This document shows, piece after piece, positions 1 through 14,043 of a DNA stretch of 19,143 bases. Source of the DNA: Cyanobacteria bacterium UBA11153 (lineage in GTDB: Bacteria; Cyanobacteriota; Cyanobacteriia; Cyanobacteriales; Coleofasciculaceae). Where the stretch lies: contig DOIX01000279.1 in NCBI GenBank assembly GCA_003511885.1, forward strand, positions 1-19,143. Direction: 5' to 3'. The translations under genes were made by a program, and so were the position numbers. Numbering within the stretch: the first letter of the stretch is position 1; every line of letters starts with the position of its first letter. The notes beneath the pieces are model-generated. The model saw nothing but the letters and a program-made list of their open reading frames with translations, had not been told where the DNA came from and ran no database searches.

Positions 1-639
1 GACAATACAGCCCTCAATCGCGCTGCTAGAAATTTAGGAATTGGTGAAAATGCCGCAGTATTTAGCCAGCTACCATTCACTCGTGCTGAAGCTGAGAAAA
101 TTATCGCTTTAGTACCAGAAAATCAAAGTTTAGAAGCTTTAGATTTTAAGGCTTCTCGTACTAATGCTACTAATCCAGATTTATCTCAATATCAGATAGT
201 CCATTTTGCTACTCACGGCTTACTTGATTCCGTTAATCCGGAATTATCTGGGATAGTTTTATCCCTATTTAATGAAAAAGGAGAAGCCCAAGATGGCTTT
301 TTGCGCCTCCACGATATTTTCAACTTGAATTTACCTGCGGAATTAGTAGTATTAAGTGCCTGTCAAACGGGATTAGGTGAAAATGTGAAAGGGGAAGGAA
401 TTGTGGGCTTGACAAGAGGCTTCATGTATGCTGGGGCGAAGCGAGTTGTAGTTAGTTTGTGGAGTGTGAATGATGTGGCGACTTCGGAATTGATGGCTAA
501 GTTTTATCAGAAAATGCTGCAAGGGGGGCAAAATCCGGTTAATGCTTTGAGAGAGGCACAGTTGGAGATGTGGAATTCTGGAGAATGGAAATCTCCTTAT
601 TATTGGGCTGCCTTTACGGTGCAGGGGGATTGGCGGTAG
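1..639 (+). CDS. CHAT-domain protease, C-terminal part (5' end outside window)
   Basis: The frame is open from base 1 to a TAG at 637-639, giving 212 residues of the C-terminal end of a larger protein. CHAT domains are caspase-like cysteine peptidase folds, often fused behind TPR repeats in filamentous cyanobacteria. Both catalytic signatures are visible: His in HFATHG (codon 72 of the window, 214-216) and Cys in VLSACQTGLG (codon 121, 361-363). The following GEGIVGLTRGFMYAGAKRV and SLWSVND blocks, and the terminal PYYWAAFTVQGDWR, are typical of the family. The catalytic dyad is intact, so the domain could be active. The substrate is unknown, and any N-terminal TPR region lies upstream of the window. 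A TTG at 301 is an internal codon, not the start. Confidence 0.9.
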   Translation, partial: DNTALNRAARNLGIGENAAVFSQLPFTRAEAEKIIALVPENQSLEALDFKASRTNATNPDLSQYQIVHFATHGLLDSVNPELSGIVLSLFNEKGEAQDGFLRLHDIFNLNLPAELVVLSACQTGLGENVKGEGIVGLTRGFMYAGAKRVVVSLWSVNDVATSELMAKFYQKMLQGGQNPVNALREAQLEMWNSGEWKSPYYWAAFTVQGDWR

Positions 640-683
640 AGGGGTTTTTAACTGAAAACTTAGATTTTGCACCAGTTTCAATA

Positions 684-752
684 AGAGGCAGAGCCTCTAG
701 ATTCTCGTTCCCAGGTTGAACCTGGGAACTAGGGTTGGGAGGCTCTGCCTCC
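684..752. repeat. Nested inverted repeat between convergent genes
   Basis: Outer arms AGAGGCAGAGCCTCT (684-698) and GGAGGCTCTGCCTCC (738-752) are near-perfect complements. Inside them lies a 23-base palindrome (707-729: GTTCCCAGGTT, G, AACCTGGGAAC). Folded, it gives a long stem capped by a second strong hairpin. It sits between the CHAT gene and the end of gmk, which converge here, so it could end transcription from both sides, although it lacks a clear T-run. This type of element is common and dispersed in filamentous cyanobacteria. Confidence 0.75.
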
Positions 753-755
753 ATG

Positions 756-1310
756 CTATTTCCCAAAAATCGCGGCTTCAAGACTCAAAACAGCAGCATC
801 AAAATCATCATTAATAATTTGGACATCAAACTCATGAGCGGCCTCAATTTCAATCTTAGCACGCTCCAGACGACGGGCGATCGCAATTTCACTATCTTGC
901 CCTCTCCCTCTAATCCTGGTCTCCAATTCCGCTAAACTGGGAGGAAGAACGAAAATCCGCCAAGCATTGGGAAAATTTTTGTTAACTTCCCTAGCTCCAA
1001 CTAACTCAATCTCTAAAATAACAGACTTACCCAATTGAATTTTTGACTCAACGGGAAGGCGAGGAGTACCATAATAATTACCCGCATACTCAGCCCATTC
1101 CAATAACTCACCTGCGGCTATCATTGCCTCAAACTTGTCGCGACTGACAAAATAATAATCTTTGCCATCAACTTCGCCATCGCGAGGTTGGCGAGTGGTT
1201 GCCGAGATAGAAAGCTCTAATTCTGGATATTTTCCCATGATGGCACGGAGTAAAGTTCCTTTCCCGACACCACTAGGACCAGTCAATACGATTAGTTTCC
1301 CTAATTCCAT
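756..1310 (-). CDS. gmk: Guanylate kinase
   Basis: This 184-residue protein has the usual length of guanylate kinase, which phosphorylates GMP to GDP with ATP in the cytoplasm (purine nucleotide and GTP supply). The Walker A loop GPSGVGKGT is at residues 11-19. The GMP-binding region follows (SISATTRQPRDGEVDGKDYYFVS), then EWAEYAGNYYGTP, and the arginine-rich lid (RIRGRGQDS...RRLERA). The start ATG at 1310 has no Shine-Dalgarno sequence. It is preceded by a repeat carrying three AGTTGAC heptamers (1325-1345 on the plus strand). The RemA-family gene lies upstream in the same direction, an arrangement widely conserved in bacteria. Confidence 0.95.
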   Translation of the reverse strand: MELGKLIVLTGPSGVGKGTLLRAIMGKYPELELSISATTRQPRDGEVDGKDYYFVSRDKFEAMIAAGELLEWAEYAGNYYGTPRLPVESKIQLGKSVILEIELVGAREVNKNFPNAWRIFVLPPSLAELETRIRGRGQDSEIAIARRLERAKIEIEAAHEFDVQIINDDFDAAVLSLEAAIFGK

Positions 1311-12002: not shown

Positions 12003-12047
12003 GAGAGTTCAAGAATGGCATTAATAGTGATAGAGTGATTGGACTAT

Positions 12048-12198
12048 CTCGGTTCTGGTGGGAATCAGCCATCAGACGCAAGGGGGAAAGTACGGTGCAA
12101 ATCCGCCGCTGTCCCGCAACTGTAAAGGAAACAATGATACCCTAGCCAGGATACCCGCCGAGTCGTTAATCGGATACTGTCAATCTGCGAGGTACAGA
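12048..12198 (+). promoter_or_regulatory. Cobalamin riboswitch controlling hupE
   Basis: The closing stem pairs CTCGG (12048-12052) with CCGAG (12158-12162). Conserved core blocks are GGTGCAAATCCG (12094-12105), TCCCGCAACTGTAAAGG (12112-12128) and the B12 box AGCCAGGATACCCGCC (12144-12159). This is an adenosylcobalamin-class aptamer, expected to lower expression when B12 is plentiful. The 3' strand of the closing stem can also pair as CCGA (12158-12161) with TCGG (12170-12173), a possible switch helix. The ribosome site GAGG (12189-12192) lies in the loop of a small TCTG/CAGA hairpin (12184-12198), so control is probably at translation initiation; no terminator is visible. Confidence 0.93.
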
Positions 12199-12200
12199 TA

Positions 12201-12881
12201 ATGGCTCAAAATTGGTTACGCCAAGCAAAGAAAAGTAACATATATCTACGTCCAAAAGGCGTTAGTCTTGCTATCGCAAGTTTCATCTGTCTCGGATTGT
12301 TAATGGCAGCTAACCCTGCCATGGCGCATCACGCGATGGGAGGGAGAATTCCCGCTAACTTTTTTGAAGGATTTATATCTGGGTTAGCACATCCAGTCAT
12401 CGGTTTGGATCATTTGGCTGTAGTTTTGGCAATGGGATTCCTCTGTGTGGGAAAAGTGCAAGGTTTTTTGATGCCAGGAGGTTTCTTGTTAGCAGCGATG
12501 GGGGGCACGGGAATTCATCTACTGAGGATGGATTTACCGGGATCTGAAATAATTATCGCAATTTCTGCGATCGCATTAGGAGCTATTCTATCACTAGAAA
12601 AATCTTTAAGCTTCATTCTCCTTTTCTCTTTAGTCACAATTGCGGGTTTATTTCATGGCTATGCTTATGGGGAAGCAATTGTGGGTGCCCAAATGACTCC
12701 TTTAGTTGGTTATCTATTAGGATTTACTCTGATTCAATATGGGGTGGCGATGTTAGCATTTTGGATTGGTAGTAAAGGGATGAAAAAATCTTTGGCTCAA
12801 ACTAAATCGCTAATGCGCTACTGCGGTTACGCTGTTTGCGCGATTGGTTTTGTATTTTTGACAGTTTCTCTGGGGAGTTAG
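12201..12881 (+). CDS. hupE: HupE/UreJ family protein, probable B12-regulated cobalt transporter
   Basis: This 226-residue membrane protein has an N-terminal signal-like segment (about 22-42, ending AMAHHAMGG) and about six further helices. The family signature HPVIGLDHLAVVLAMG follows, with its metal-binding type His and Asp residues, and later LFHGYAYGEAIVG. HupE proteins are linked to nickel or cobalt uptake. In cyanobacteria, copies under a cobalamin riboswitch are predicted cobalt importers for B12 synthesis, and this gene begins directly after such a riboswitch, which supports cobalt. GAGG lies eight bases before the ATG. It stands alone, with no gene close downstream on the strand. Confidence 0.88.
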   Translation: MAQNWLRQAKKSNIYLRPKGVSLAIASFICLGLLMAANPAMAHHAMGGRIPANFFEGFISGLAHPVIGLDHLAVVLAMGFLCVGKVQGFLMPGGFLLAAMGGTGIHLLRMDLPGSEIIIAISAIALGAILSLEKSLSFILLFSLVTIAGLFHGYAYGEAIVGAQMTPLVGYLLGFTLIQYGVAMLAFWIGSKGMKKSLAQTKSLMRYCGYAVCAIGFVFLTVSLGS

Positions 12882-12987
12882 TCGATGTAGTATCGAGTAA
12901 GTGCTATCCACCAAACACTCCACAATCAGTTGAAACAGTGTAGAGATAGCCAGCCTAAGTAAAAAACTACGTTTTCAGGGTGAAGAC

Positions 12988-13020
12988 AGAGCTACAGGTG
13001 CTTTCGATGCCTGTAGCTCT
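12988..13020 (+). terminator. Strong hairpin after hupE (terminator-like, no T-run)
   Basis: AGAGCTACAGG (12988-12998) pairs perfectly with CCTGTAGCTCT (13010-13020) around an 11-base loop. It is placed about 105 bases after the hupE stop. There is no following T-run (ATTCGGGG), so it may be an mRNA-stabilising stem rather than an intrinsic terminator. Confidence 0.5.
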
Positions 13021-13111
13021 ATTCGGGGAAGGGATGATTGCAATCGCAGACCGATCTGCGCTAGACTGTAATTTGCGATCGATTATCGATTCTCTCAACT
13101 TCAGTAATAAT

Positions 13112-13492
13112 GTAAGCAACCCCGGTCTGAAGACACGGGGCTTTAGCTAAGAAATTAGTTGAAGCCGTGCTTACCAGCCTAAGTCTTAACTGACTACGTT
13201 ATCGGCAAGCGTTCAAATTCCTACCAGTGGATGCGTAGCTAGTCCACTGCTCTAGAACCGAAAAGTTAAACAGTTTTAAGGTCACTGAAACAGTGCTTTT
13301 TGGACAGTTACCGACCGATAACATTGGCGTTCGCGTAGCGTGCCGTAGGCATCAGCTAACTTTACCCAGAAATGGGCAGGAGACAACCATATCTCCACGG
13401 AGGGGCAACCATACCCCTCCAATCCCAAAAAAACGGTAGGCGAATAAATTCGCTGCCGCGCTTTCCTCTCCGGTCTAAAGACACGGAGTTTC
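13112..13492 (+). ncRNA. Structured RNA / non-autonomous IS200/IS605-like element (HEARO/omega-RNA-like)
   Basis: This is a compact series of nested stems. GTAAGCA/TGCTTAC (13112-13118, 13168-13174) encloses hairpin H1 (CCCCG..CGGGG, 13120-13140) and a CTAA-GAAA-TTAG hairpin. GTTATCGG/CCGATAAC (13198-13205, 13315-13322) encloses CAGTGGA/TCCACTG and CACTG/CAGTG. Then come CCCA-GAAA-TGGG (13365-13376), two hairpins with the same loop CAACCATA (13379-13396, 13399-13420), GCGAA/TTCGC (13440-13453) and H2 (CTCCG..CGGAG, 13468-13488). H1 and H2 are related, in the same orientation, and differ by a compensated base pair (C-G to T-A). Same-orientation end hairpins suit an IS200/IS605-type element. 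The position before a start codon resembles HEARO (IscB/IsrB omega-RNA), but no nuclease gene is present. The family assignment is inference. Confidence 0.5.
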
Positions 13493-13511
13493 CAGCGACG
13501 GAGGTATTCTG

Positions 13512-13772
13512 ATGAAAGAACAAGATTTAATAACTATTTCAATAGAATCAGATGTAAAAGCGATAGTTGAAGATATTTTTTCTCAATTGGGTATGACTAA
13601 GAGTCAAGCTATCGAATTATTTTATCAGCAAGTTGCACTAACTAAAAACATACCGTTTAAAACAATAAATCTTAATGAAGAGACCATTGGTGCGATTGAA
13701 GAACTGAATGACAAAGAAAATTTAAACAGTTATAATACTTTTGCCGAACTTCGTCAAGAATTGGGAGTGTAA
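13512..13772 (+). CDS. RelB/DinJ family antitoxin
   Basis: This 86-residue protein has the RelB/DinJ pattern: an N-terminal ribbon-helix-helix (ITISIESDVKAIVEDIFSQLGMTKSQAIELFYQQVALTKNIPF) for dimerisation and operator binding, and a C-terminal toxin-wrapping tail (YNTFAELRQELGV). The antitoxin neutralises the adjacent ribonuclease and normally represses its own promoter. GGAGGT (13500-13505) lies six bases before the ATG. The structured RNA element ends only about 20 bases upstream, so the promoter must lie within or before it. The toxin gene begins one base after its stop codon. Confidence 0.88.
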   Translation: MKEQDLITISIESDVKAIVEDIFSQLGMTKSQAIELFYQQVALTKNIPFKTINLNEETIGAIEELNDKENLNSYNTFAELRQELGV

Positions 13773-13773
13773 C

Positions 13774-14043
13774 TTGCGGAAAATTATTACCACAAACCAA
13801 TTTAAAAAAGATCTGAAAAGACTTGCCAAAAGAGGAAAATTTATAAATAAGCTTGAAGAAGCGATCGATAAATTACAAGCAGGAATAAATCTCGAACAAC
13901 GCTATCGCAATCATCAGTTAATCGGCAACTGGTTTCCTTACTGGGAATGTCACATAGAATCAGACTGGCTATTAATTTATCAGCAAACAGAAACAGAATT
14001 AATATTAATTAGAACAGGTACTCATAGCGATCTATTTGATTAA
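13774..14043 (+). CDS. YafQ/RelE family mRNA interferase toxin
   Basis: This 89-residue toxin is a YafQ-like ribosome-dependent mRNA endonuclease. All residues important in E. coli YafQ are present with a constant shift of three: His47, His60, Asp64, His84 and Phe88 (for His50, His63, Asp67, His87, Phe91), in NHQLIG, CHIESDW and RTGTHSDLF. It should be active. I choose the TTG at 13774 as start because GGAG (13764-13767) precedes it at six bases and the protein then begins RKIITTNQFKKDLKRL as in homologues. An upstream TTG at 13741 would add unrelated residues inside the antitoxin frame. It lies one base after the antitoxin, as expected for a type II pair. Confidence 0.88.
   Translation: MRKIITTNQFKKDLKRLAKRGKFINKLEEAIDKLQAGINLEQRYRNHQLIGNWFPYWECHIESDWLLIYQQTETELILIRTGTHSDLFD

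Follow-up and report, generated by a model that had tools for sequence, protein, structure and literature searches.

A 400-bp structured stretch in the genome of Cyanobacteria bacterium UBA11153 is best explained, with a probability of roughly 70%, as a non-autonomous element of the IS200/IS605 type that has kept its full omega RNA and lost its IscB gene, the guide now being served by IscB made elsewhere in the cell. The element stops exactly at the start codon of an antitoxin gene, and relatives of it stand at the start codons of many unrelated genes. It was found in a DNA stretch of 19,143 nucleotides, referred to here in its entirety as the window, which sits in contig C373 of a 6.65 Mb assembly in 437 contigs.

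Identity and ends of the element

A suspicion of a HEARO RNA, raised in a first-pass annotation of the window from its letters, was borne out by the covariance search. Positions 13112-13365 match Rfam family RF02033 (HEARO) with 136.5 bits against a cut-off of 83, over the full length of the model (1-211), and no intron family matched the window in the Rfam scan. The predicted fold of this region lies at -81.4 kcal/mol, whereas shuffled sequences average -65.4 (z -3.14) and one in 200 of them is equally stable. The stems of the annotation are real: two long-range stems, one of 7 bp (GTAAGCA with TGCTTAC) and one of 8 bp (GTTATCGG with CCGATAAC), can be read in the sequence together with two GAAA loops. 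Both of its end hairpins are also present, lie in the same orientation and differ by a compensated C-G/T-A pair. In an alignment of 13 HEARO regions, nine of them from nuclease-less elements, 28 of the 51 predicted pairs show double changes with pairing kept in at least one copy. The extent of 13112..13492 given at first was correct at the left; the right end is at 13511, the part covered by the HEARO model stops at 13365, and 13366-13420 forms an additional 3' domain beyond it (Table 1).

The HNH endonuclease ORF named in the title of RF02033, which the RNA itself does not require, is absent directly downstream, where the next gene is the antitoxin, as the annotation had stated. The end hairpins, the absence of a target duplication and the insertion beside a fixed short motif are those of IS200/IS605-type elements, and several short gene-less copies in one genome (the window, C60, C408 and C395) are what defines a PATE or MITE. 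Judged from its sequence, 13112-13511 is thus an element of the IS200/IS605 type from which the nuclease gene is missing, and one and the same thing answers to the two names considered at the outset, PATE-like element and orphan HEARO/omega RNA.

Table 1. The element and adjoining features in the window
Feature	Position	Strand	Basis or remark
Entire nuclease-less IS200/IS605-type element, 400 bp	13112..13511	+	Copies at unrelated sites have the identical left end and stop at ...TATTCTG/ATGA (slash, junction)
HEARO / omega RNA scaffold	13112..13365	+	RF02033; 94-95% identity to the C242 and C24 HEAROs
Presumed guide region (left flank adjoining scaffold)	13096..13111	+	By analogy with known omega RNAs
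Left-end hairpin CCCCG..CGGGG	13120..13140	+	Sequence, alignment
24-nt insert in 3' part of HEARO	13329..13352	+	Missing in the C24, C242 and C60 copies
GAAA-loop hairpin CCCA-GAAA-TGGG	13365..13376	+	Position of the small GNRA hairpin that bears the nuclease-gene ribosome-binding sequence in nuclease-coding copies
Hairpin GGAGA-CAACCATA-TCTCC, without ATG	13379..13396	+	Counterpart of the start-codon hairpin in nuclease-coding copies
Second hairpin with identical loop, GGAGGGG-CAACCATA-CCCCTCC	13399..13420	+	
Right-end hairpin CTCCG..CGGAG	13468..13488	+	Sequence; other copies
GGAGG, 7 nt before antitoxin ATG, within element right end	13500..13504	+	In other copies too
ATGAA: target site at right end, presumed nuclease motif, antitoxin start codon	13512..13516	+	G017 homology starts here
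RelB-family antitoxin gene, host gene outside element	13512..13772	+	PF04221, 46.9 bits
YafQ-family toxin gene, host gene outside element	13774..14043	+	PF15738, 117 bits

The junction with the antitoxin gene (13511/13512) is exact. At unrelated places the right end reads ...GGAGGTATTCTG/ATGA or variants of this; the match between the window and an element-free antitoxin-toxin pair in genome G017 begins exactly at 13512; and a pair in a Prochloron genome, where HEARO is absent, opens with the same ATGAAAGAA, so that the antitoxin starts at this sequence in two relatives. The adjacent genes both exceed their Pfam cut-offs as a RelB/DinJ-YafQ pair; the toxin had been named correctly as YafQ (PF15738), and the antitoxin, called DinJ-type at first, is assigned to the RelB family (PF04221). 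The annotation had also proposed a captured leader that controls this pair. Such domestication seems very unlikely: the element is indeed the immediate leader of the antitoxin gene and places GGAGG just before its ATG, but HEARO was found at none of 20 homologous toxin loci scanned (29 fetched) and like elements precede many unrelated genes. Toxin-antitoxin control was for these reasons rejected as the purpose of the element, and its association with the pair looks incidental. An effect on expression at the window locus alone may exist.

A study of IsrB (PMC9581776) gives its target-adjacent motif as NTGA, or NTG in two cyanobacterial orthologues, so the start codon at the right end doubles as the presumed nuclease motif. 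The element is preceded by other features. The front portion of an element from a different HEARO subfamily lies immediately 5' of it (12903-13020; 80% identity to a C427 element over 129 columns, without an Rfam score of its own), and a Cobalamin riboswitch (12033-12176; 62.8 bits, cut-off 31.5) stands just 5' of a HupE/UreJ-family gene at 12201-12881. HEAROs are reported, in work by Weinberg from 2009, to insert before ATGA or GTGA. The 24-nt insert of the scaffold, which we take to be reminiscent of cyanobacterial short dispersed repeats, occurs once in its own genome at up to 1 mismatch and was thus ruled out as a repeat of that genome; a similar insert occupies the identical HEARO position in a distant genome (L060, 1450-1696).

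Copies and nuclease genes in the same genome

The search for other copies was productive, both in relatives and in the genome itself, which holds 26 HEARO matches, 15 of them above the cut-off, against none in 14 control genomes. The iscB-type genes whose presence elsewhere the annotation had left as a question were also found. There are nine matches to the RRXRR domain of IscB/IsrB, eight over the cut-off and six near full domain length. Two loci, C24 and C242, carry HEAROs 95% and 94% identical to that of the window (218 positions), followed in order by an iscB-type gene and a window-like right end (92%); RRXRR and HNH domains are both present in the C242 protein. The element of the window therefore has an IscB-coding relative in its own genome. 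Of seven Y1 transposase matches, five were examined (L049, L050, L051, L052, L054), and none of these has the window-type end in its vicinity; elements bearing TnpA/TnpB and a window-type end occur in G005, G010 and G017.

The presumed guide has no other match in the genome above chance. With at most 2 mismatches and an intact motif it fits at one other place (C248), and a reversed-pattern control fits at 2; trans targets in the genome were rejected on this ground. It follows that any target must be an absent empty allele. That the RNA acts in trans as a regulator, binding other genes of the genome together with a nuclease or a nuclease-dead partner, is extremely improbable in view of these counts, numerous as guide RNAs without an adjoining nuclease gene are.

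A further alternative is that the element is a dead deletion derivative of the PATE/MITE kind, in which the ends alone serve movement, the RNA is decaying, and the placement at start codons reflects no more than the purging of other ATGA sites by selection. Some copies are what this would predict. The copy in C60 is 307 bp long and has lost most of its HEARO, its final 163 bp being 100% identical to the window copy, and three 58-bp copies (L030, L151, L155) consist of one hairpin, the left end running straight into the right-end hairpin. We regard this alternative as unlikely overall, on the evidence of placement and RNA structure given below. Two details of these ends deserve record in their own right: an S-adenosylmethionine synthetase ORF is opened by the short copy of L155 about 20 codons before the matched domain, and L219, L220 and L120 have tandemly repeated right ends, as would be expected if the target motif had served two times.

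Placement at start codons and empty sites

Placement was scored in two samples by whether the RTGA at the right end opens an ORF of at least 60 aa. Set 1, drawn from part of the element and right-end matches, comprised 48 right ends like that of the window with a readable RTGA, 22 of which open such an ORF. The proportion was 11/14 for nuclease-less copies with a HEARO above the cut-off, 4/6 for copies with an IscB gene or remnant (the two misses being C24 and C242), 1/9 for TnpA/TnpB-bearing elements with the same end and 6/19 for other contents; the contrast of 11/14 with 1/9 has a Fisher p of 0.003. Left out were L149, L150, L154 and L164, which have a right-end-like hairpin with a different tail and lack a HEARO at the cut-off, and, for want of an RTGA in reach, L085 (a genuine right end, with ATAA next to it) and matches in L058, L062, L082, L088 and L161, which represent either left ends or chance similarity. 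The HEARO copies L026, L028, L033 and L036 went uncounted because the hairpin model missed their ends, and L075 and L088, with altered ends, were retained as misses.

Set 2 was picked by HEARO alone in order to avoid selection by the right end, and consisted of 60 HEARO matches, among the matches listed, from further genomes of this order, none of which contributed more than five. Two that stop at contig ends, L227 and L256, were dropped, leaving 58 of which 23 lack IscB; L250, before a phosphoglycerate-kinase-like ORF, was dropped for its unreadable right end. Right ends were read by eye, and the strict count covers copies without IscB: 14 of 22 readable ends open an ORF of at least 60 aa. 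Among RTGA sites taken as controls from 68.7 kb of adjacent DNA, scored likewise by ORF length and not by a gene caller, 172 of 903 (19%) do so, or 29 of 244 (12%) where the upstream sequence is non-coding. Against these two rates the binomial tails are 2.5e-6 and 1.7e-8 for 11/14 and 5.6e-6 and 1.4e-8 for 14/22, figures to be read with the kinship of copies within a subfamily in mind, although their sites differ. A dead derivative would account for the nuclease-less copies away from such ORFs (3/14 in set 1, 8/22 in set 2). It does not readily account for intact HEAROs standing mostly at ORF starts when TnpA/TnpB-bearing elements with the same end do not, nor for the low rate at control sites with non-coding upstream sequence.

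The GGAGG within the right end may act as a ribosome-binding sequence. It precedes RTGA in 44 of 48 ends of set 1, a count biased by a query that contains GGAGG and found many of these ends, in 6 of 22 in set 2 and at 78 of 929 control sites; a ribosome-binding sequence was rejected as a universal trait.

Besides the antitoxin gene, nuclease-less copies stand at the start codons of 24 host genes, all of which were scanned; 20 have a Pfam match and four (L057, L158, L229, L266) have none. The matches include ribosomal protein L9, an acyl-carrier-type protein, thiamine phosphate synthase with ThiD2, TatA, a phycobilisome protein, PurT, a penicillin-binding transglycosylase, rubrerythrin, apocytochrome f, Psb27, an epimerase-family protein, rubredoxin, a metallophosphatase, pyridoxamine phosphate oxidase, 6-phosphogluconate dehydrogenase, an O-methyltransferase and DUF2808. 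Several of these genes are presumably essential.

For two hosts the empty site could be read in relatives. The left flank of the element at acpP in G001 adjoins the gene directly in G011, G012, G005 and G010, and is 125 bases apart from it in G000; the G011 site reads ..GGTTGAGGAATAATTG/ATGAACGAAG, to be compared with ..GGTTGAGGAATATTTG/element/ATGAACGAAA in G001. At rplI of G005 the flank adjoins the gene in G011 (..AAAAGACT/ATGGCAAAG, against ..AAAAGACT/element/ATGACAAAAC in G005), and is separated from it by a greater distance in G012 and G002, as judged from the matched flank. Insertion thus took place exactly before acpP and rplI, and comparison of these two insertions with the empty sites revealed no target duplication.

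Hairpins retained after loss of the nuclease gene

Past the end of the Rfam model, a small hairpin bearing a ribosome-binding sequence occurs in many nuclease-coding copies and is followed by a hairpin of the form AGAC-GCAACAAT-GTCT, the ATG of which is the start codon of the nuclease gene. At the same place, nuclease-less copies of the window type have GGAGA-CAACCATA-TCTCC, mostly with a second hairpin of identical loop, and other nuclease-less copies have GGGAT-ACAACAAT-TTCCC. The hairpin motif was found in 17 of 37 nuclease-less copies (13 with CAACCAT, 4 with ACAACAAT), none with an ATG, and was missing from the other 20; it was found in 14 of 31 nuclease-coding copies, all with an ATG, this census using 31 of 35 loci and a pattern somewhat broader than the one applied to nuclease-less copies. 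When the two named helices are scored in 12 copies, 92% of cells are paired. The eight double-change cells and the covariation score exceed those of 500/500 shuffles and of all slid versions; the count of two pairs that carry double changes is not exceptional, being reached by 339/500 shuffles, and all double changes fall in the first helix and none in the second. The preservation of HEARO pairs through double changes, and the persistence of the 3' hairpin without an ATG, are not what would be expected of a dead derivative with a decaying RNA.

In DtIsrB, the tandem 3' hairpins contact the PLMP domain, and nicking is lowered by removal of SL7/8 and not by removal of SL8 alone (PMC9581776). By analogy a protein-binding role for the 3' hairpins is plausible, and the GAAA-loop hairpin at the end of the scaffold may correspond to SL7 of IsrB. 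No Rfam family besides HEARO matched in 20 set 2 loci scanned. Two more groups of nuclease-less HEAROs (L234, L237, L239-L242, L261 and L273; L236, L244, L245 and L247) have their own conserved sequence past HEARO, unlike the CAACCATA type. In L156 a group I intron match (555-802, minus strand) lies downstream of a tocopherol cyclase gene whose own start coincides with the end of a TnpB-type element.

Proposed mode of life and related systems

The reading we prefer, a transposable guide RNA served by IscB from other loci, would work as follows. A Y1 transposase acting in trans would place the element directly 5' of ATGAA, here the antitoxin start codon. Insertion would occur on one strand, beside TCAT, and the omega RNA would as a result always be read in the direction of the gene at whose start codon the element had landed. 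Since the guide would be the flank left of the scaffold, that of each copy would be the terminal part of the leader native to the host gene; its target would be the uninserted allele, and the motif beside that target the host start codon. The host promoter may make guide, scaffold and message as one RNA, with the element in sense orientation in the leader; a promoter scan of 12850-13560 found none, where shuffles would give 0.8. The guide part would probably be loaded by IscB from other loci such as C24 and C242 and direct it to uninserted alleles, whose cutting would favour keeping the element. Cutting of uninserted alleles that favours element-bearing copies is described for TnpB and IscB elements. 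In the subfamily of the window, the end of the element would also supply a new ribosome-binding sequence.

With the omega RNA of IscB-IsrB the window element shares the full covariance match, the end hairpins, the insertion 5' of RTGA and the guide position in the left flank; it differs in having no nuclease gene and in having kept the start-codon hairpin without its ATG, followed by a second with the same loop. Stand-alone omega RNAs were reportedly noted together with IscB by Altae-Tran in 2021. These too have no neighbouring iscB and presumably use a nuclease in trans, whereas host start-codon placement, empty sites and nuclease-less 3' domains are documented here. PATE and MITE derivatives of IS200/IS605 are likewise short, carry the hairpin ends of larger elements and are moved in trans; the window element, in contrast, retains a full conserved guide RNA between its ends. 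Group I introns and IStrons are also mobile RNAs that limit the harm of insertion; for the window element, a position ahead of the start codon would have this effect. A literature search by title and abstract opening, which did not cover the first HEARO and omega descriptions, found no report of HEARO elements at start codons, and absence is not proven by it.

More broadly, it seems to us an even bet that nuclease-less HEAROs form a lasting class of start-codon parasites, inserted in sense between leader and ATGA, using the host promoter, the leader end as guide and IscB from elsewhere, and often giving back a ribosome-binding sequence. If so, a genome would carry leader-embedded guide RNAs, each aimed at the start codon in the uninserted allele of its own host gene, with housekeeping genes such as acpP and rplI among the targets, and these RNAs could act as homing devices and perhaps as regulators. 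Landing at the start codon would explain life beside genes that the cell cannot lose, and selection for the RNA, continuing once the protein was gone, would be evident from the hairpin that persists without an AUG. Both IscB and IsrB are related to the ancestor of Cas9. Nuclease-less guide RNAs in housekeeping leaders have predictable guides and empty alleles known from relatives, and would make trans loading, homing and effects on expression directly testable.
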